Origin: an uncultured Desulfuromonadales bacterium
GTDB lineage: Bacteria; Desulfobacterota; Desulfuromonadia; Desulfuromonadales; Geopsychrobacteraceae
Direction of reading: 5' to 3'
Assembly (NCBI GenBank): GCA_947259715.1
Contig: CAMYNR010000167.1
Location: 1 to 37,246, forward strand
DNA: 37,246 nucleotides
This document shows, piece by piece, positions 1 through 16,315 of this stretch. The position numbers were made by a program, and so were the translations under genes. Within the stretch, counting starts at the first letter, position 1; each line of letters opens with the position of its first letter. The notes beneath the pieces are model-generated. The model did no database searches, was not told the origin of the DNA, and worked only from the letters and a program-made list of their open reading frames with translations.

Positions 1-432
1 ATGCAGGAGTTTGCAGTTTTTATTGCCGATCACCCGCTGGTTGCCCACAATGCGGCCTTCGACAGCAGATTCCTGAAAGACGAGCTGGAACGAATCGGGC
101 AGTATCGCCCCCTGGAGTTCGCTTGCAGCATGCTAATTGCCCGCCGCGTCTATCCGGAAGCGCCAAACCACAAATTGTCCACCCTGGTTCGCTGTCAGGA
201 GCTACCGGTCACCGGCCAGTTTCACCGGGCTCTGGCTGATGCCGAAATGACGGCGCACCTCTGGCTGAAAATGGTCGAAGACCTGAAAACCACATTTGGT
301 TTTAAAGAGGTTCCATTTACCCTTATGAAAAATCTCGGCAGGCTTGCCAGGCGGCAGGTTCCGGGCTACCTTAAAAAGCAGGCCGCGAATTTTGAGGCGC
401 ATGAGCAGCAGGGCGCGACACTTCCCTTTTAG
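1..432 (+). CDS. DnaQ-like 3'-5' exonuclease, C-terminal part (5' truncated by window edge)
   Basis: This is the C-terminal 143 residues of a DEDDh-type 3'-5' exonuclease related to the epsilon proofreading subunit of DNA polymerase III. The Exo II segment (LVAHNAAFDSRFL, near residue 14) and the Exo III segment (HRALADAEMTAHLW, near residue 76) are visible. The Exo I segment with its DxE pair is missing. The reading frame is open at base 1, so the gene almost certainly starts upstream and the ATG at base 1 is probably internal. The family removes nucleotides from DNA 3' ends using two metal ions. The stop lies 15 bases before the start of the small selenoprotein gene, so the two are probably co-transcribed. 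Replication proofreading versus a repair role cannot be decided from this fragment. Confidence 0.82.
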   Translation: MQEFAVFIADHPLVAHNAAFDSRFLKDELERIGQYRPLEFACSMLIARRVYPEAPNHKLSTLVRCQELPVTGQFHRALADAEMTAHLWLKMVEDLKTTFGFKEVPFTLMKNLGRLARRQVPGYLKKQAANFEAHEQQGATLPF

Positions 433-447
433 CATCCGGAGAGACAG

Positions 448-666
448 ATGAACGCCAGCATTGAATACTGCGTGGAGTGAAACTACCAGCCTCGCGCTGC
501 CGGTCTGGCGGCGAAACTGGAAAATGAGTGTGCTGCGAGCGTTGATTTGATCCCCTCCAGCGGAGGAGTTTTTGAAGTGATCGTCGATGGGAAATTGATC
601 TATTCGAAAAAAGCCACTGGTCAGTTTCCGGACGATGAGCAGCTGGTAAAATCTCTCAACTCATGA
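448..666 (+). CDS. SelW/Rdx-family selenoprotein (UGA-encoded Sec11)
   Basis: A 72-residue protein read through an in-frame TGA at 478-480. It starts at an ATG after a GGAGAGACAG purine stretch and ends at the TGA at 664-666. Read with selenocysteine, the start is MNASIEYCVEU, which gives a C8-x-x-U11 redox motif. After it come the usual Rdx/SelW-like features: YQPRA after the Sec, a GGVFEVIVDG strand, and an SKKATGQFPD segment. The length fits the family (about 70-95 residues). SelW-like proteins have a thioredoxin-like fold and are thought to act in thiol redox chemistry; the substrate is unknown. The frame stays open and protein-like for 61 codons after the TGA, and a SECIS-like hairpin lies at 495-513. 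The end overlaps the next start by 4 bases (ATGA), which suggests translational coupling. A TGA-broken pseudogene is the alternative and seems unlikely. Confidence 0.87.
495..513 (+). promoter_or_regulatory. Bacterial SECIS-like hairpin for Sec insertion at TGA 478-480
   Basis: Fourteen bases after the TGA, CGCTGCC (495-501) pairs with GGCGGCG (507-513). This is a 7-bp stem with one U-G wobble and a GGTCT loop (502-506). Bacterial SECIS elements lie inside the coding region just downstream of the UGA and present a short apical loop with G and U for SelB. The loop matches the GGUCU core of the E. coli fdhF element as I remember it. The spacing is also in the expected range. SelB binding is inference. 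Confidence 0.75.
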
Positions 667-1166
667 CCGATATCAAAACCCTGGCCGAAACGCTGGGCCT
701 CTGGCCACAAATTTCTGAAGCGATTGCCCGTGCAGGTCAAAAGTCTCTACTGCAAACAATCGCCCAGCTGCCGGTGCGCAAAAGCTCCGCCACCCGCAGC
801 CTTGGCGCTTATGTCTCCAAAGGAGGCAAACCGCTCTGCATCCGTCTGCAGTTTGCTCAGGAGATCGAGCAACTCAAGGACACCTTGCTGCATGAAATAG
901 CCCACGCCTGCGATCACCTCGCCGAGCAACCGGGACAAACCTACCGGCGTGCCCACGGACCGACCTGGCGGGCCTGGGCCAATGCTCTGGGTGCCACCGC
1001 GCAACGCCGCGGCCACAGCGACTCGGTCGCCCTGCTGCATCAGCAACGCCTTAAAGTGGTCGCCGTGTGCCAGAACTGCGGAGCTGAATTCAAACGACTG
1101 CGACGCCTGAATCGGCGCCGCCACTATACCCATCCTGCCTGCGGGGGGCGGGTTCTCCCGGTCTGA
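663..1166 (+). CDS. SprT-like zinc metalloprotease-fold protein
   Basis: A 167-residue SprT-like protein. The zinc-binding HEIAH motif is at residues 77-81, followed by a further HGPTWRAWANALG segment (around residues 98-110) that is typical of SprT-like domains. A C-terminal zinc ribbon is visible as C136-x2-C139 and H157-x2-C160. The eukaryotic relative SPRTN cleaves DNA-protein crosslinks. The role of bacterial SprT proteins is poorly known, and proteolysis here is inference from the HExxH motif. The ATG at 663 overlaps the stop of the selenoprotein gene (ATGA), so translation is probably coupled. Together with the exonuclease upstream, the cluster has a faint nucleic-acid-maintenance and redox flavour. 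Confidence 0.85.
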   Translation: MTDIKTLAETLGLWPQISEAIARAGQKSLLQTIAQLPVRKSSATRSLGAYVSKGGKPLCIRLQFAQEIEQLKDTLLHEIAHACDHLAEQPGQTYRRAHGPTWRAWANALGATAQRRGHSDSVALLHQQRLKVVAVCQNCGAEFKRLRRLNRRRHYTHPACGGRVLPV

Positions 1167-1180
1167 GCAGCCTTCAGCCG

Positions 1181-2074
1181 TCAGGTGAATCCTCCCGCCT
1201 GCTTCTCGGCCAGCATCCAGAAAGCCTGTACGCTCGGTCGCTTGAGATTCCTCCTACTGGTGCAGAGCCCGACAACATAGGGATCAAGCACAGGAGCATT
1301 GTCCAAAACCAGGACATCTTCGCGGAACGGACTGCGCTCCCAGACCAGCTGCGGCACAATACCAACACCACAGCCGAGGCGCACCATGGCAATAATCGCT
1401 TCGTTACCAGTGATCTCTGAAGCGATATTCGGGGTTATTCGCTGCTCCTTCAACCATTGTTCCAGCCGCCAGCGCGACAGCCCCATTTGCGGGACCACCA
1501 GGGGGGCCCGAGACAGGTCAAGCTGCCCATCGCCAATGACTGGCAAATCCGGTTCTGCCGATTTCGGCGCGATAAAGATCAGCGGCGTGGTGGTTATTGG
1601 CAAAAATTCGATCCGTGAGCGCTGGCGATCCGGCAGGGCAGCCACGGCCAAATCGATTTCGCCACTCTGCACCAGGCTGACGGCCTGCTCGGCAGCGCCG
1701 GTCCGCAGCTCCAGCTGCACTTCCGGATAGGCGCGCCGGTAGGCTTCCAGAAGTTGCGGCAACAGGCTGTAAACAGCAGTGATCGAGGCATAAAGTGACA
1801 AGCTGCCGGCCACCTGCTCCTCGGCCTGAAGGGTCGTTCGAAAGGCCTGCCACTCCTGGAGGGTTTGCCGTGCGTAGCTGCGGAATCGTTCACCTGCCGG
1901 GGACAGACTGACCTTGCGATTGTCACGGATAAACAGCGATTGCTCAAGTTGCTCTTCAAGCCGCTGGATGGTGCGGGTCAAGGCGGAAGGGCTGAGATTG
2001 CAGGCCTGACTGGCCCGACCAAAATGCAACTGTTCAGCGACCACCAGAAAGATTTCCAGTTCACGAATATCCAT
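1181..2074 (-). CDS. ilvY: LysR-family regulator IlvY
   Basis: A 297-residue LysR-type transcription factor, the same length as E. coli IlvY. The N-terminal winged helix-turn-helix covers residues 1-60 (HFGRASQACNLSPSALTRTIQRLE). The C-terminal periplasmic-binding-protein-like effector domain fills the rest. It is transcribed divergently from ilvC with a 158-bp shared control region, the arrangement known in enteric bacteria, where IlvY activates ilvC in response to the KARI substrates acetolactate and acetohydroxybutyrate. The name is given from similarity to IlvY plus this context. Its 3' end converges on the SprT-like gene with a 14-bp gap and no obvious terminator. Confidence 0.87.
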   Translation of the reverse strand: MDIRELEIFLVVAEQLHFGRASQACNLSPSALTRTIQRLEEQLEQSLFIRDNRKVSLSPAGERFRSYARQTLQEWQAFRTTLQAEEQVAGSLSLYASITAVYSLLPQLLEAYRRAYPEVQLELRTGAAEQAVSLVQSGEIDLAVAALPDRQRSRIEFLPITTTPLIFIAPKSAEPDLPVIGDGQLDLSRAPLVVPQMGLSRWRLEQWLKEQRITPNIASEITGNEAIIAMVRLGCGVGIVPQLVWERSPFREDVLVLDNAPVLDPYVVGLCTSRRNLKRPSVQAFWMLAEKQAGGFT

Positions 2075-2090
2075 AGTTACCCTTTGAGCA

Positions 2091-2160
2091 ATGCAACCAT
2101 CCTACTATTGCATTTCACGCAACACAATATACACAACAAATCAATTTACGCAATATTGTA
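2091..2160. promoter_or_regulatory. Candidate IlvY operators in the ilvY-ilvC intergenic region
   Basis: The 158-bp divergent region holds several inverted repeats of the LysR type. TTGCATTTCACGCAA (2108-2122) is a TTGC-N7-GCAA dyad containing a T-N11-A core. ATGCAA (2091-2096) mirrors TTGCAT (2108-2113). A third site, CAATATTG, is a perfect palindrome at 2151-2158. In E. coli, IlvY binds tandem operators between ilvY and ilvC. Binding here is inferred. The ilvC start is preceded by a strong ribosome binding site (AAGGAGAG, starting at 2219). Confidence 0.6.
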
Positions 2161-2232
2161 TTTCGGTTATTGTGCCCAGAATTCACTTAATATCAGCACT
2201 TCGCCCCCATACAAAACACAAGGAGAGAGATC

Positions 2233-3711
2233 ATGGGTCAGAACTATTTCAACTCCCTGCCATTCCGTCGTCAGCTTCAGGAACTCGGCACCTGCCGCTT
2301 TATGGACGCTGAAGAGTTCGTCAATGGCTGCGAATATGCCAAAGGCAAGAAAATCGTTATCGTTGGCTGTGGTGCCCAGGGTCTCAATCAGGGCCTGAAC
2401 ATGCGCGACAGCGGTCTTGACGTCTCCTACGCCCTGCGCGAAGAAGCGATTGCCGAAAAACGCCAATCCTACCTTAACGCAAGCGAAAATGGCTTCACCG
2501 TCGGCACCTACCAGGAGCTGCTGCCGAGCGCCGACATCGTCATGAATCTGGCCCCTGACAAGCAGCATACCGACGTGGTCAACACCGTGGTACCGCTGAT
2601 GAAGCAGGGCGCAACTTTCTCCTACGCGCACGGCTTCAACATTGTCGAGGAAGGCACCCAGATCCGCAGCGACCTGACCGTGATCATGGTTGCCCCCAAG
2701 TGTCCCGGATCAGAAGTGCGCGCCGAGTATCAGCGAGGTTTTGGCGTTCCGACCCTGATCGCCGTTCACGGTGAAAACGATCCCAATGGCGATGGCCTGG
2801 AGATTGCCAAGGCACTCTGCTCCGCTCAGGGCGGCGATCGCGCTGGGGTGCTCGAATCCTCCTTCGTTGCCGAGGTTAAATCCGACCTGATGGGCGAGCA
2901 GACCATCCTCTGTGGCATGCTCCAGGCTGGCGCTCTGCTCTGCTTCGAAAAGATGACCGAAAACGGCATCGATGCCCCTTACGCCGTTAAACTGATTCAG
3001 TACGGCTGGGAAACCATCACCGAGGCCCTCAAGCATGGCGGCATCACCCACATGATGGATCGCCTTTCCAACCCCGCCAAGCTCGAAGCTTTCGAGCTGG
3101 CCGAAGAGTTGAAGGAGATCATGCGGCCGCTGTTCGAGAAGCACATGGATGACATCCTCTCCGGTGAGTTCTCACGCACCATGATGGAAGACTGGGCCAA
3201 CGATGATGTTAAGCTGCTGACCTGGCGTGAAGAGACCGGCAAGACGACTTTCGAGAAGACCGAAGCTGCCGGCGAGATCTCTGAGCAGGACTATTTCGAC
3301 AAGGCGATTCTGATGGTCGCCATGGTCAAGGCAGGTGTCGAACTGGCGTTTGAAGTTATGGTCGAAGCGGGTATTGAGCCAGAGTCGGCCTACTACGAGT
3401 CGCTGCACGAAACTCCGCTGATCGCCAACACCATCGCCCGGAAAAAGCTTTACGAAATGAACCGGGTGATCTCCGATACCGCTGAATACGGGTGCTACCT
3501 CTTTGCCCACGCCTGCGTGCCGCTACTGAAAGATTTCATGGCGGCAGTCGAGACCGATGTGATCGGCAAAGGCCTTGAATTGACCAGCAACGGCGTTGAC
3601 AACCAGGAGCTGGTGGCGGTAAACGCAGATATTCGTGGCCACCTGATCGAAGCGGTCGGTGAAGAATTGCGCGCGGCGATGAACGGCATGCAAGCGATCG
3701 CCTCAGCTTAG
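2233..3711 (+). CDS. ilvC: Ketol-acid reductoisomerase, class II (long form)
   Basis: A 492-residue NADPH-dependent ketol-acid reductoisomerase, the second common step of valine and isoleucine synthesis. It converts acetolactate or acetohydroxybutyrate to the dihydroxy acids with Mg2+. The Rossmann motif [17 protein letters not shown] is near residues 46-62. The knotted C-terminal domain is duplicated, which makes the long class II form found in E. coli and plants. Stretches such as [37 protein letters not shown] and [13 protein letters not shown] are nearly identical to the enteric enzyme. Many delta-proteobacteria, as I recall, carry the short class I form of about 338 residues, so this gene and its paired ilvY may have been acquired together. 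A clear terminator follows. Confidence 0.97.
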
Positions 3712-3735
3712 GCTATCACCCAGATCAATTCGGCG

Positions 3736-3770
3736 AAAAAGTCCCTTCCATATGGTAGGGACTTTTTTTT
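3736..3770 (+). terminator. Rho-independent terminator after ilvC
   Basis: AAGTCCCT and AGGGACTT arms enclose a CCATATGG core, followed by a run of eight T. It lies 24 bases after the ilvC stop and fits the end of the ilvC transcript. Confidence 0.88.
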
Positions 3771-3858
3771 GGACAGCATTGGCTTACGCCACATTTTTCG
3801 TTAGAGTAGCCTCGTCATGACCCTGTAAATCTGCATATCTTTGCAAGGAAAGCCACCG

Positions 3859-4878
3859 ATGAAAAAATATCACCTCACCGCCATCGGCAACGCCCTGGTC
3901 GATATGGAATTTAAAATTGAAGATAACTTTCTCAAGGCCTGCTCAATCGACAAAGGCGTAATGACCCTGGTCACTGAGGAACGCCAAACGGAATTGGTTG
4001 CGGCCCTGGAGGGGCACCCAGGAAAATGGGCATGTGGCGGTTCAGCAGCGAATACGGTCATCGCCGCCGCACAGTTCGGTGCAGACTGTTTTTATTCCTG
4101 CAAATTAGCGGCAGATGAGACCGGTGATTTCTATCTGCGCGACCTGCACACCGCCGGAGTAGCCAGCAATGCCGATCATGGACGCGGCCCGGGGATCACC
4201 GGGAAATGCCTGGTTATGGTAACGCCTGATGCCGAGCGGACGATGAACACCTTCCTGGGAATTTCCGAGGGATTCTCCATTGCCGAGCTGGATAGCGATG
4301 CGATAAACGCTTCCGAGTACCTCTACATTGAAGGCTACCTGGTCACCTCTCCGACGGGTCGGGCAGCGGCAATTGAAGCCAAACGAATAGCTGAACGCGC
4401 TGGGGTCAAAACCGCGCTGACCTTTTCCGATCCGGCAATGGTTCAGTATTTCAAGGAAGGCCTCGAAGAAATGGTCGGTGGCGGCGTCGATATGCTGTTC
4501 TGCAATGAGGCTGAAGCTCTGGCCTGGGCGGGCTGCGGCCAACTGGAAGAGGCACTAGGCGCTTTATCGCAGATTGCCAAAAATTTTGCTGTGACCTGCG
4601 GCGCCGATGGGGCCATCCTTTTCGACGGCGAAGGCCTGCATCGCGTCAGCCCGCATCCGGTGACTGCGGTCGACAGCAACGGTGCCGGTGATATGTTTGC
4701 CGGAGCACTGCTTTTTTCCCTGACCCGGGGCGACAGTTTTCCAAATGCAGGCCGGCTGGCAAGCCTGGCTTCAGCTCGGGTCGTCAGTAGTTTTGGCCCA
4801 CGACTTCTGGCCGAAGAGCACCAGGAGATCCTGCAAACGGTTTCCCTCCAACAGCAACCTCAAGCTGTCAGGCGATAA
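3859..4878 (+). CDS. PfkB-family kinase, adenosine kinase-like
   Basis: A 339-residue ribokinase/PfkB-fold sugar or nucleoside kinase that transfers phosphate from ATP to a hydroxymethyl group. Visible features are the N-terminal GNALVDME, the substrate-loop GGSAANT near residue 54, and the PfkB signature DSNGAGDMFAGA near residue 272 with the catalytic Asp in GAGD. The sequence resembles the adenosine kinase-like branch that is widespread in proteobacteria, but the substrate cannot be fixed by reading. The ATG at 3859 is preferred to a TTG at 3841 because AAGGAA (3846-3851) sits 7 bases upstream. It is a single-gene unit between terminators. Confidence 0.88.
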   Translation: MKKYHLTAIGNALVDMEFKIEDNFLKACSIDKGVMTLVTEERQTELVAALEGHPGKWACGGSAANTVIAAAQFGADCFYSCKLAADETGDFYLRDLHTAGVASNADHGRGPGITGKCLVMVTPDAERTMNTFLGISEGFSIAELDSDAINASEYLYIEGYLVTSPTGRAAAIEAKRIAERAGVKTALTFSDPAMVQYFKEGLEEMVGGGVDMLFCNEAEALAWAGCGQLEEALGALSQIAKNFAVTCGADGAILFDGEGLHRVSPHPVTAVDSNGAGDMFAGALLFSLTRGDSFPNAGRLASLASARVVSSFGPRLLAEEHQEILQTVSLQQQPQAVRR

Positions 4879-4906
4879 TTCCTGAATCGACAAACAAGCT
4901 CAAACA

Positions 4907-4942
4907 GCAATGCCCCTCCATGAAAACATCGAGGGGCATTGC
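4907..4942. terminator. Hairpin between convergent genes, possible bidirectional terminator
   Basis: GCAATGCCCCTC (4907-4918) pairs perfectly with GAGGGGCATTGC (4931-4942) across a 12-base loop. It lies between the convergent kinase and Cache-protein genes. There is no long T run on either side, so the strength is uncertain. Confidence 0.6.
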
Positions 4943-4987
4943 CAGCAAGACCTACAGCCTCAGACCGCAGCAGCGGCGAGCTGAATT

Positions 4988-5455
4988 TTATTGATAGATT
5001 CCAGCGGCTACGAACATATCGGTACCCGGAACACGATAGATGTAAGTATCTTTCTTTGAGGGGGCTTCCTCGCCCGGCTTAGGCCACATGTAATCAACCC
5101 AGCCCTCGCCAGAATTCTTTGCCACTTCAACGAATTCGGCAAACAGCATCTTCGGGTTCTCGGCATTTTTGTCAGGAACCGCAAGCAGACTGCCTTTTTC
5201 GGTCAAAGCCGGTTTGATCGGATGTGCAAGCATGTTGCCGTTCAGATCCATCAAAAAAACATAGGTATCTTTCCAGACAAATTGCCCTTCCTTATTACCA
5301 ATTTCTGCAACCCCGGCAGCTTTATCCTGCTGCAGCATTTCAGCAGCTTTCTTACATGTGGCGACACACTCCTCCTTGGTGGCCGAATCCGCAAAGGCGG
5401 TGCTGGCAACAAAGAGAACAGCAACAAGCAGCAACAAAACTTTCTTCATTTTCAT
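4988..5455 (-). CDS. Secreted single-Cache-domain protein
   Basis: A 155-residue exported protein. Residues 1-22 are a signal peptide (Lys-rich start, hydrophobic LLLLVAVLFVA, AFA cleavage site). The rest resembles a single Cache (sCache_2-like) sensor domain: TYVFLMDLNGNMLAHP, then EGWVDYMWPKPG and a KKDTYIYRVPGTDMFVAAGIY end. Cache domains usually sense small ligands outside the membrane as part of chemoreceptors or kinases. This one stands alone with no transmembrane or signalling domain, so it may be a free periplasmic ligand-binding protein. Two Cys (C30 and C34, as ECVATCKK) could form a disulfide or bind something; this spacing is not a haem-c motif. The first ATG follows GGGGGTTAAAAA. 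Confidence 0.82.
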   Translation of the reverse strand: MKMKKVLLLLVAVLFVASTAFADSATKEECVATCKKAAEMLQQDKAAGVAEIGNKEGQFVWKDTYVFLMDLNGNMLAHPIKPALTEKGSLLAVPDKNAENPKMLFAEFVEVAKNSGEGWVDYMWPKPGEEAPSKKDTYIYRVPGTDMFVAAGIYQ

Positions 5456-5856
5456 TTTTTAACCCCCATCTGTCAGTTCGATTTTCATTTTGTTTGCACT
5501 GGTCAATTTCACCTCTCGAGTGGCTGCATCACCCCTGAACGATATCTCCTTCCTGCAGCAAGGCTCAACTTTGGGTTCAGGCGTTTAAACCCCCACCGGT
5601 AAACCACAAGAAAAAATATAATATTGTTTTACTCCGGAACATTATCGCCACTTTTTTATTTTTCGCAACAGTCTGAATACATTTTTTGAGATTATTTTTT
5701 CTAATCAAAAAAAGCCAAGACACTGAAATACATCGTTCTTTTATTGATTAATCCAGTAATGACAAAAACTTATCCTAGAATAATGCCGTTCTACGTCATT
5801 CCCTTTCCAGAAGAAGATCCTGACTCACTATTGAGGAATCCTTTCCCGATTTTGCG
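5456..5856. other. Long intergenic region with a possible structured leader
   Basis: About 400 bp with no convincing gene. The part next to the Cache gene would be its 5' leader. CCTGAAC (5534-5540) can pair with GTTCAGG (5575-5581), and inside that loop CCTT (5548-5551) can pair with AAGG (5560-5563). The far half (5610-5760) is strongly AT-rich and suits a promoter region. I looked for the conserved segments of GEMM (c-di-GMP) riboswitches and did not find them. No riboswitch class is claimed. Confidence 0.35.
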
Positions 5857-5890
5857 ATAAAAAAAGGCCGTCAGTAATATCTGACGGCCT
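5857..5890 (-). terminator. Rho-independent terminator after guaA
   Basis: On the minus strand AGGCCGTCAG and CTGACGGCCT form a 10-bp stem (5865-5874 with 5881-5890) with a 6-base loop, followed by a T run (the A run before 5865 on the plus strand). It lies 26 bases beyond the guaA stop. Confidence 0.92.
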
Positions 5891-5916
5891 GGCGATTCAA
5901 TGAAGAAAACCTTATG

Positions 5917-7476
5917 CTATTCCCACTCGATGGTGGCGGGAGGCTTGCTGGAAATATCGTAGGTGACGCGATTGATCCCCTTAACCTCGTTGATGATCCG
6001 GTTACTGATCCGCGCCAGATCTGCATAAGGCATCGGATACCAGCCGGCGGTCATGAAGTCCTTGGTCTCGACCGCGCGCAGGGCGACAACATACTCGTAG
6101 GTGCGGCCATCGCCCATGACCCCGACCGACTTGACCGGCAGAAAGACGGCAAACGCCTGACTGATTTTGTGGTAGTGGCCGCTCTCGTAAAGCTCTTCGA
6201 TATATATGGCATCGGCGCGGCGGAGAATTTCGCAGTACTCCTCCTTAACTTCGCCAAGGATCCGCACGCCCAAGCCCGGTCCCGGGAAGGGATGCCGCCA
6301 GACCATCTGATGCGGCAGGCCGAGCTCTTCGCCGACGGTGCGCACCTCATCCTTAAACAGTTCGCGCAGCGGTTCAAGCAGCTCCAGCTTCATGTAGTCG
6401 GGCAGACCGCCAACATTGTGATGGCTCTTGATGTTATGCGCCTTACCGGTCTTAGCTCCGGCCGATTCGATGACATCGGGGTAAATGGTCCCCTGCGCCA
6501 ACCACTTGGCATCCTTGACCTTGTTCGATTCTTCCTCAAAGATATCGACGAACAGGCCACCAATGATTTTACGCTTCTTCTCCGGATCGGCCTCACCGGC
6601 CAGCGCATCGTAAAAACGCTGCTGAGCATTGATCCGGGTGACCTTGACGCCCATGTTGCTGGCGAAGGTGGCCATCACCTGATCGCCCTCGTCGAGGCGC
6701 AGCAGACCGTTATCGACAAACACACAGTGCAGCTGATCGCCGATCGCCCGGTGGATCAGCGCCGCAGCCACCGAAGAATCAACCCCCCCGGAAAGACCGA
6801 GGATCACCTGATCGGTACCGACCTGTTCCTTAATCCGCGCCACCGCATCTTCGATAATCCTGCCCGGCGTCCAATTGCCGCTGCAGCCACAGATTTTGCG
6901 CACGAAGGTGTTAATCAACATGTCACCGCGCGGGGTGTGATTGACCTCCGGGTGAAACTGAACGCCGTAGAGATTACGGGCAACGTTCTGGATCCCACAG
7001 ACCGGCGCGTTGGCGGTCTTGGCGATCATCTCGAAGCCTTCGGGCATCTTCTCGACGTGATCGCCGTGGCTCATCCACACCGGGCTCTTGCCATCGGCAA
7101 AGAAACCGTCGAACAAGGGTCCCGGAGTGCCAACCGAAAGCAGCTCAGCGTGGCCGTACTCCCGCTTGCCCGCAGCGATAACTTCGCCGCCGAAGTGACG
7201 GCTCATCAACTGCATGCCGTAGCAGATCCCCAACACCGGGATGCCCAGCTCGAACAGCTCCTCTTCGATCCGCGGAGCCCCCTCCTCATAGACCGACTTC
7301 GGCCCACCGGAGAGGATAATCCCCTTGGCACCGAAGGCTTTGATCTCCTCCAGCGACATGTCAAAGGGCTGCAACTCACAATAGACGTGCGACTCACGCA
7401 CCCGGCGAGCGATCAGCTGAGTATATTGCGACCCGAAATCGAGAATCAGAATTTTTTCGCTATGAATATCGGTCAT
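5917..7476 (-). CDS. guaA: GMP synthase (glutamine-hydrolysing)
   Basis: A 519-residue GMP synthase that converts XMP, ATP and glutamine to GMP. The N-terminal class I glutamine amidotransferase domain shows the nucleophile Cys in GICYGMQLM (about residue 85) and the FHPEVNHT His-Glu pair. The ATP pyrophosphatase domain follows with the P-loop [11 protein letters not shown]. The C-terminal dimerisation domain ends in the conserved KPPATIEWE. The length matches the family. It lies 5 bases downstream of guaB, so both committed GMP-branch enzymes come from one transcript. Confidence 0.98.
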
Positions 7477-7481
7477 CGCAA

Positions 7482-9018
<1,537 letters not shown>

Positions 9019-14841: not shown

Positions 14842-15657
14842 TTAGCCGCCAACATACGGGATGACCGCAGCCGGCTCCAGAATGCGGAAGGTGAACGACT
14901 CGTTGTAATACAGTTTGACCTTCTCGGCAGTATGGGAATCATAGCCGACGGACAGATCCTGACCAAGGATCAGTTCAAAATCGCCACCCCGGGTGGTCAC
15001 CATAAAAGCTTCATCGGCATGATCGCCGGTCAGGTAAGGACTTAGGATAACCGAGCCGCCGAGAATATTTTCAGCCTGCATCTTTACCGGATAGCCTTGC
15101 ACATGAGCCGACATTTTGCTCCACAGCTTCGGTCCGACGACAAAAGAGTAAGGCCCCTCTATGGAGCGTTCGGCAAAAATCGTCACGCCTTGAGCAATGG
15201 TCTCGAGCAACTGTTCCGGCTTCGAGCCAATGGTCATGCATTGGGACCCGGTGCAAACCTTCAGCCCTTTTATATTCGCCTCATTCAGGCCATGATAAAC
15301 CACGCTCTCTTCAAACAGAGCGATTTTGCGTGCTGCGTCCTCCAAGTTGCCAAGGTCGATATCCTTGGCCCCGCGGACCACGTTATCCATCTCTTTGATA
15401 TCCAGCTCAAAGGGGATACGCGCTTCCACCAGATGGTGAACCTTATGGATGCCGTAGTTCAAGCCATCCTTCGGCTGCTTTTTCGGATAATCGAGCCGGC
15501 CTTCCGGAACACCGGGAAAATCAGTGCCCATCGGCTCGCTGACATCCACCACCTTTCGTGCAGAAAGCATGGCTGTTAGGGTACGCGTCGCCTGCTGGTC
15601 TATTTCAGTCCACGCCTCGGCGGGAATCGGTGCCAGTTCTCGTTTTAAAATATCCAT
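14842..15657 (-). CDS. Encapsulin nanocompartment shell protein (family 1)
   Basis: A 271-residue HK97-fold shell protein. It aligns by eye along its whole length with the Thermotoga maritima encapsulin: MDILKRELAPIPAEAWTEID at the N-terminus, ARKVVDV, NVVRGAKDIDLGNLEDAARKIALFE, SIEGPYSFVV, and the near-invariant GGDFELILGQDLSVGYDSH close to the C-terminus. Family 1 encapsulins self-assemble into icosahedral shells (60 or 180 subunits) around cargo enzymes that carry a C-terminal targeting peptide. Older annotation often calls these proteins bacteriocin or linocin M18. The cargo gene lies 49 bases upstream on the same strand. GGAGGTTTT precedes the ATG. Shell size cannot be told from the sequence by eye. 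Confidence 0.95.
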   Translation of the reverse strand: MDILKRELAPIPAEAWTEIDQQATRTLTAMLSARKVVDVSEPMGTDFPGVPEGRLDYPKKQPKDGLNYGIHKVHHLVEARIPFELDIKEMDNVVRGAKDIDLGNLEDAARKIALFEESVVYHGLNEANIKGLKVCTGSQCMTIGSKPEQLLETIAQGVTIFAERSIEGPYSFVVGPKLWSKMSAHVQGYPVKMQAENILGGSVILSPYLTGDHADEAFMVTTRGGDFELILGQDLSVGYDSHTAEKVKLYYNESFTFRILEPAAVIPYVGG

Positions 15658-15706
15658 AAAACCTCCATTGCTCCATGGCTATGAGATGCAAGAATGATTT
15701 TTAAAC

Positions 15707-16219
15707 TTACTTTTTCAGGCTGCCGATCCCCAGCCCGGCGGCAACCGACCTGCCGGCGGAACGGCCTGAAGTATCGATTCCAGCAGGGACCTCTGGCAGG
15801 CGGACATTCAGAAGATTCTCTTTCGCTTCCTGAAATGCTGCGCCCAGAGCGGCTAAATCTTTGGCAGCCAGCAGTTGCCGGGCCATGGGGAAGACCTCCA
15901 TCTCCTCTTCATCAAGATGGTGATTGGTATATTCGCTGAGGCCCTCGACCTTTATCGGAAAGCGATCATGCTCAGGAGGGAATCCCTCGGCATCCTTCAA
16001 TATCAACTCGATAATATGGTGTTCGTTGACCGCCTCGAGCGAGGCATGACGCGCGGCCGGCACCTGTTCGAACAGATCGTAAAAATACTTTTCCTCCATG
16101 GTGTGATGAACAACCAGGTGGCGAATATATTCTGCAAAAGCGGCTGGGTCTTCCTCCGCCTGTTGACTGAGTTGCCTTAAAACCTGGTGGTGTTCGACAA
16201 GGGCATCGACAATATCCAT
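15707..16219 (-). CDS. Hemerythrin-domain encapsulin cargo protein with targeting peptide
   Basis: A 170-residue protein. Residues 1-125 are a four-helix hemerythrin-like domain with the di-iron ligand pattern: H10/H11, HHTMEE (38-43), H67/H68, and NHHLDEEE (99-106). A Gly/Ser/Arg-rich linker (about 146-161) leads to the C-terminal GLGIGSLKK (162-170), the form expected of an encapsulin-targeting peptide. Hemerythrins bind O2 or other small molecules at a di-iron centre. Encapsulin-hemerythrin pairs have been predicted and reported to help against oxidative or nitrosative stress. The ATG at 16219 follows AAGGAGG; a longer frame from 16264 lacks such a site. The shell gene follows in the same operon. 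Confidence 0.93.
   Translation of the reverse strand: MDIVDALVEHHQVLRQLSQQAEEDPAAFAEYIRHLVVHHTMEEKYFYDLFEQVPAARHASLEAVNEHHIIELILKDAEGFPPEHDRFPIKVEGLSEYTNHHLDEEEMEVFPMARQLLAAKDLAALGAAFQEAKENLLNVRLPEVPAGIDTSGRSAGRSVAAGLGIGSLKK
15710..15736 (-). other. Encapsulin-targeting peptide (cargo-loading signal)
   Basis: These bases encode residues 162-170 of the hemerythrin protein, GLGIGSLKK. The hydrophobic L-G-I-G-S-L-K pattern after a flexible linker is the typical C-terminal cargo-loading peptide of family 1 systems, which binds the inner face of the shell. Confidence 0.85.
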
Positions 16220-16315
16220 AGAACCTCCTTCAACAAGATGAACGTCGGGCTTGCGTTCCAGCAATCAAGAAACGCTGTCAGCCACTGTTAGGGACGAGTT
16301 TACCGTAAATATTGA

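Follow-up and report, generated by a model that had tools for sequence, protein, structure and literature searches.

An in-frame TGA very probably decoded as selenocysteine in a SelW-like gene of an uncultured Desulfuromonadales bacterium

SelW-like proteins of the Rdx family that carry a Cys-x-x-Sec (CxxU) motif are an established family of bacterial selenoproteins, and the phenomenon of an in-frame UGA in their genes is already known. In the available excerpts of a 2005 paper on the Sargasso Sea, SelW-like is counted among the selenoproteins known by then, with 48 genes, its function is called unclear, a redox role is suggested from the CXXU motif and an interaction with glutathione is cited (PMC1088965). 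The excerpted text of a 2006 paper gives SelW-like with 10 selenoprotein sequences, including those of Geobacter sulfurreducens and Desulfotalea psychrophila, and describes few or no Cys homologues among Sec-using organisms (PMC1794560), and the portions at hand of reviews of 2022 (PMC9312934) and 2026 (PMC13188914) list the family as CxxU/PF10262.

The window, the whole stretch of 37,246 nucleotides analysed here, holds at 448–666 on the forward strand a gene that we read as a further SelW-like, Rdx-family selenoprotein gene, whose UGA at 478–480 is decoded as selenocysteine; we give this reading a probability of about 0.95, the incorporation of selenocysteine at this codon being deduced from sequence. 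In the mechanism that we propose, ribosomes would start at 448 and arrive at the UGA at 478–480, where an mRNA hairpin just past it (495–513) would recruit SelB with Sec-tRNA(Sec), the UGA would thereby be decoded as selenocysteine, and the UGA at 664–666 would serve as an ordinary stop. The 72-residue product would then present a Cys-x-x-Sec redox site in a thioredoxin-like fold. The SelB-directed step is drawn from established bacterial selenocysteine decoding together with the evidence at the locus, and the Cys-Sec redox step from the family and the motif.

Reading frame, protein family and neighbouring genes

The frame that opens with the ATG at 448 runs for ten codons to the TGA at 478–480 and is then open up to the TGA at 664–666. 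Translation with TGA as selenocysteine yields 72 residues with the motif C8-V-E-U11, encoded at 469–480 with Cys 8 at 469–471. A candidate ribosome binding site, GGAGAG, is found at 438–443, 4 nt 5' of the ATG, and the stop codon shares an ATGA (663–666) with the ATG of the next gene. The sequence-only reading had claimed such a 72-residue CxxU protein, a good ribosome binding site, a stop coupled to the next gene and Rdx-family features after the selenocysteine, and its observation is confirmed at the coordinates given. The read-through product scores above the cut-offs of Pfam Rdx PF10262 (77.2 bits, cut-off 22.6, E = 1.1e-21, residues 4–70) and of the NCBIfam models for SelT, SelW and SelH proteins, NF041051 SelTWH (89.3 bits, cut-off 88) and TIGR02174 CXXU_selWTH (65 bits, cut-off 34.2). 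Cys 8 and position 11 are invariant in a 26-row alignment, and the protein is conserved over its whole length past the TGA.

An AlphaFold model, computed with Cys in place of Sec and 26 aligned sequences, has a pLDDT of 93.3 and a predicted strand-helix-strand-strand-strand-helix topology, in which the C8-x-x-U11 motif is placed after the first strand (residues 2–8). The best match of the model among solved structures is 2fa8 (TM 0.90); 23 solved chains were retrieved at E <= 0.001, the top 21 being bacterial SelW-related proteins and the next mouse SelW and human MIEN1, and a search of the PDB by sequence returned 8 distinct sequences of the same family. The product is thus predicted to adopt the thioredoxin-like Rdx fold, nearest to the solved bacterial SelW-related proteins, and its most likely role is that of a small cytoplasmic protein with selenol/thiol redox activity.

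Upstream of the gene lies a DnaQ/RNase T-type exonuclease (1–432, forward strand), which has lost its N-terminal part at the contig start and matches Pfam RNase_T from profile position 75. Downstream, a SprT-like protein gene (663–1166, forward strand; Pfam SprT-like, 35.4 bits) begins within the ATGA overlap and is followed by ilvY on the reverse strand and ilvC on the forward strand. A survey of 83 homologue loci at E <= 1e-4, many with short flanks, some from distant phyla and a few counted twice, found the exonuclease in 15, IlvY in 12, IlvC in 16 and a SprT-like protein in none; in every locus that has it, the exonuclease precedes the homologue in the same orientation, and IlvY, where present, is encoded on the opposite strand. 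The recurrence of the exonuclease, ilvY and ilvC and the lack of SprT-like at these loci suggest that the neighbourhood is old in near relatives and that the SprT-like gene is local to this genome, where it was probably gained. Neither the selenoprotein nor the SprT-like protein drew a hit in PADLOC, and no match was found in a phage collection.

The overlap bears on how often the UGA is decoded. Release factor and SelB inherently compete for a UGA, and the ATGA at 663–666 permits coupling, so that the locus could give a mixed output, with mostly a 10-residue peptide and with selenocysteine insertion as a selenium-dependent switch by which translation of the SprT-like gene is set as well; we consider this unlikely, and the count of 0 SprT-like genes in the 83 loci, many of them with short flanks, would make any such switch local to this genome. 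The exonuclease directly upstream in 15 of the 83 loci and the overlap with the SprT-like gene here have also led us to ask whether the selenoprotein could serve DNA-end processing as a redox partner that depends on selenium, its decoding tuning a DNA-repair operon, a speculation to which we attach very little weight.

Two other features of the window are recorded here. An encapsulin (Linocin_M18) adjoins a hemerythrin-domain protein, possibly its cargo, at 14842–16264 on the reverse strand, and a 523-aa open frame (5914–7485, forward strand) lies exactly antisense to a GMP synthase gene (5917–7476, reverse strand) and is probably a shadow frame, since it has no Pfam match.

The candidate SECIS hairpin

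The sequence-only reading had placed a hairpin with a GGUCU loop at 495–513, where a bacterial SECIS should be, and it folds as described. The stem has 7 bp and the loop occupies 502–506; none of 200 shuffled sequences folded as well as the hairpin (−11.8 kcal/mol), and 3 of 200 equalled the longer segment 478–522 (−17.7 kcal/mol). The limits given for bacterial SECIS elements in the excerpts at hand of the 2026 review are a loop of 3–9 nt, a stem of 4–16 bp, G in the first two loop positions, a distance of 16–37 nt from the UGA and a minimum free energy of −7.5 kcal/mol or lower (PMC13188914); with 5 nt, 7 bp, GG, 21 nt and −11.8 kcal/mol, the hairpin lies within every one of them. The window has 1359 TGA triplets, both strands counted, and a script that required 6 or more pairs, including 5 G-C, with a G in the first two positions of the loop, found a comparable hairpin behind 8; of these, only the one at 495–513 has a GGTCT loop. 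Rfam, searched with a lenient cut-off, has nothing that matches the hairpin, and its one weak hit lies at another place, on the opposite strand.

We compared the stem, aligned at a constant offset from the TGA, among 84 homologous genes and 8 paralogous or odd copies (L119, L122–L128), 92 sequences of which 87 are distinct. The five core pairs (497–501 with 507–511) show standard pairing in 420 of 435 cells, compared with 102–267 when one side was slid by 1–3 bases. All five are kept in 74 of the 87 sequences and at least one is missing in 13; among the latter, the hairpin of L052, L057, L058 and L060 folds in another register, and that of L018, L022, L072 and L119 is weaker than −7.5 kcal/mol in the folded 37 nt.

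Two of the stem pairs, 498/510 and 501/507, link third codon positions. The first occurs as C-G (45), U-A (23), U-G (6), G-C (5), A-U (4) and others (4), and the second as C-G (73), G-C (7), U-G (3) and others (4). With bases scored as strong or weak, none of the other third-position pairs, 136 in all, is as strongly correlated as 498/510 (r = 0.79, against a median of 0.11); the second highest value (0.56) belongs to a pair outside the stem, and the outer stem pair 495/513 came third (0.52), all these values being uncorrected for relatedness and controlled for base composition through the other third positions alone. The rank of 498/510 argues that genome base composition by itself is an insufficient explanation. 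A chance hairpin was rejected on the rarity found by script, the conservation of the core pairs and the silent-site covariation. The published limits and the covariation together make 495–513 a SECIS candidate, and the aligned SelW-like set, with its silent-site covariation, is usable as training data for SECIS finders.

The flip of the apical pair from C-G to G-C belongs to a second Rdx subfamily in relatives' genomes (L123–L128), which carries C-x-S-U-G-(H/Q) and whose hairpin reads GC(A/G)GCG-AGUCU-CGC(U/C)GC, with the apical pair reversed relative to the SelW-like set.

Selenocysteine machinery and conservation of the TGA

The genome to which the window belongs is a 2.6 Mb assembly of 209 contigs, 76.7% complete. 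Of the four genes that the sequence-only reading had tied to its proposal, three are present: selC, the tRNA-Sec gene, scores above its cut-off at 60.9 bits with the anticodon tca, and selB (363.2 bits) and selA (605 bits) stand side by side on one contig, selB being above cut-off in 21 of 21 genomes, this one included. The fourth, selD, gave two sub-threshold matches in the whole assembly (30.5 and 22.8 bits, cut-off 125) and was not found adjoining selB within bases 1–9000 of the 14993 of that contig (C95). Since selD is above cut-off in 55 of 60 genomes, a set that includes this one, an assembly gap is the likely cause of its lack. The missing selD nevertheless counts against our reading, as do the sequences in which a core pair of the hairpin is lost and the empty Rfam result at the hairpin. 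On the contig itself (G000:C95) the order is selA-selB with no selD behind selB; in relatives such as G002 and G012 selD follows selB.

A formate dehydrogenase stretch elsewhere in the assembly (contig C15; 188.9 bits, full-length cut-off 666) also has one in-frame TGA, whose context, I-U-H-S-x-x-V-A-S-L, aligns with Sec140 of E. coli FdhF. The five AhpC-TSA matches in the genome have no stop inside, so this family supplies no second example of selenocysteine.

Scanning genome contigs, we obtained 54 homologous loci from Desulfuromonadales and other Desulfobacterota, Acidobacteriota, Verrucomicrobia, Gemmatimonadetes, Neomarinimicrobiota, Alphaproteobacteria, Actinobacteria, Planctomycetota and Fictibacillus, and the CxxU codon is TGA in 54/54, although one of the peptide patterns used in the scan carried Cys at the Sec position. 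With 29 relatives' loci and the window added, and 15 relatives' matches without a locus left out, the codon is TGA in all 84 lined-up genes, which span several phyla; in this count the site was the best-scoring YC-x-x-[U/C/S/G/T], with one score point given for U, and some places stand twice as the same contig in two collections (e.g. L019/L077 and L022/L089), 81 of the 84 54-mers being distinct.

Among 60 genomes, this one included, 39 have a match, and of the 46 matches 44 have one TGA inside and 2 have none. Pfam Rdx applied to 136 genomes of the order, again with this one, yielded 81 matches in 73 genomes, 79 of them with TGA (one in 78, two in 1); of the two free of TGA, L120 is a CxxC form and L121 a match without the N-terminal part. 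No Rdx match was found in 63 of the 136 genomes or in 4 of 9 same-genus relatives, so the gene is common and not universal. The single copy with two TGAs, three codons apart (L119, G070:C44:94400–95000), is in a genome with a second Rdx copy that has one TGA, and may be either decayed or a form with two Sec residues.

The frame alone cannot identify the amino acid inserted, and a general change of code or leaky readthrough could place another residue at 478–480; we regard this as highly improbable in view of the tRNA-Sec, selA and selB in the genome and of a hairpin that fits the rules for a SelB-type SECIS. TGA is moreover the first later stop in 35 of the 84 genes, the window's included, which argues against general reassignment of this stop, and we rejected that possibility. 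We also considered a decayed gene, in which a nonsense mutation or a sequencing error has put TGA in the place of Cys or of some other normal residue. The known Cys forms of Rdx (L120 and solved structures) and the decayed-looking L119 might speak for it, but it was rejected as having almost no chance of being right, with the TGA common to 84/84 genes, the frame intact and the protein conserved beyond it, and compensatory changes maintaining the hairpin.

Comparison with known systems

With a UGA decoded as selenocysteine, 448–666 would be a clear case of a functional gene that is overlooked by plain stop-to-stop reading and for which independent RNA-level evidence is at hand. It raises no new question on genetic decoding, and the question of the substrate of bacterial SelW-like proteins is not eased by this gene alone.

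The SECIS of E. coli fdhF shares the apical GGUCU with the hairpin at 495–513, whereas the distance from UGA to GGUCU is 18 nt in fdhF and 21 nt here, the fdhF stem is interrupted in its predicted fold while the stem at 495–513 is a continuous 7 bp, and the host proteins differ. The Cys-type bacterial Rdx structures 2fa8, 2obk, 2oka, 2p0g, 3dex and 2ojl have the same fold as the model (query-normalised TM 0.79–0.91), as has mouse SelW, 2npb (query-normalised TM 0.73), and 2fa8 and 2oka have Cys aligned where 448–666 has TGA. Opposite position 11 the homologues have Sec, with TGA as the codon in 84/84 genes, or Cys, as in L120 and 2fa8, and the scarcity of Cys forms among the homologues repeats the pattern described in the excerpted text of the 2006 paper (PMC1794560). 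On all three points by which the sequence-only reading had proposed to judge itself, namely selB and selC in the genome, Cys or Sec at position 11 of homologues and conservation past the TGA, the outcome supports its interpretation. The closest system is that of the bacterial SelW-like (SELENOW-like) selenoproteins, with the same PF10262 family, the CxxU motif and a SECIS right after the UGA, from which this gene differs by its 55–65% identity to the nearest named Desulfuromonadales relatives and by the local SprT-like neighbour. The gene at 448–666 is an additional clear member of this known family, new only in sequence detail.
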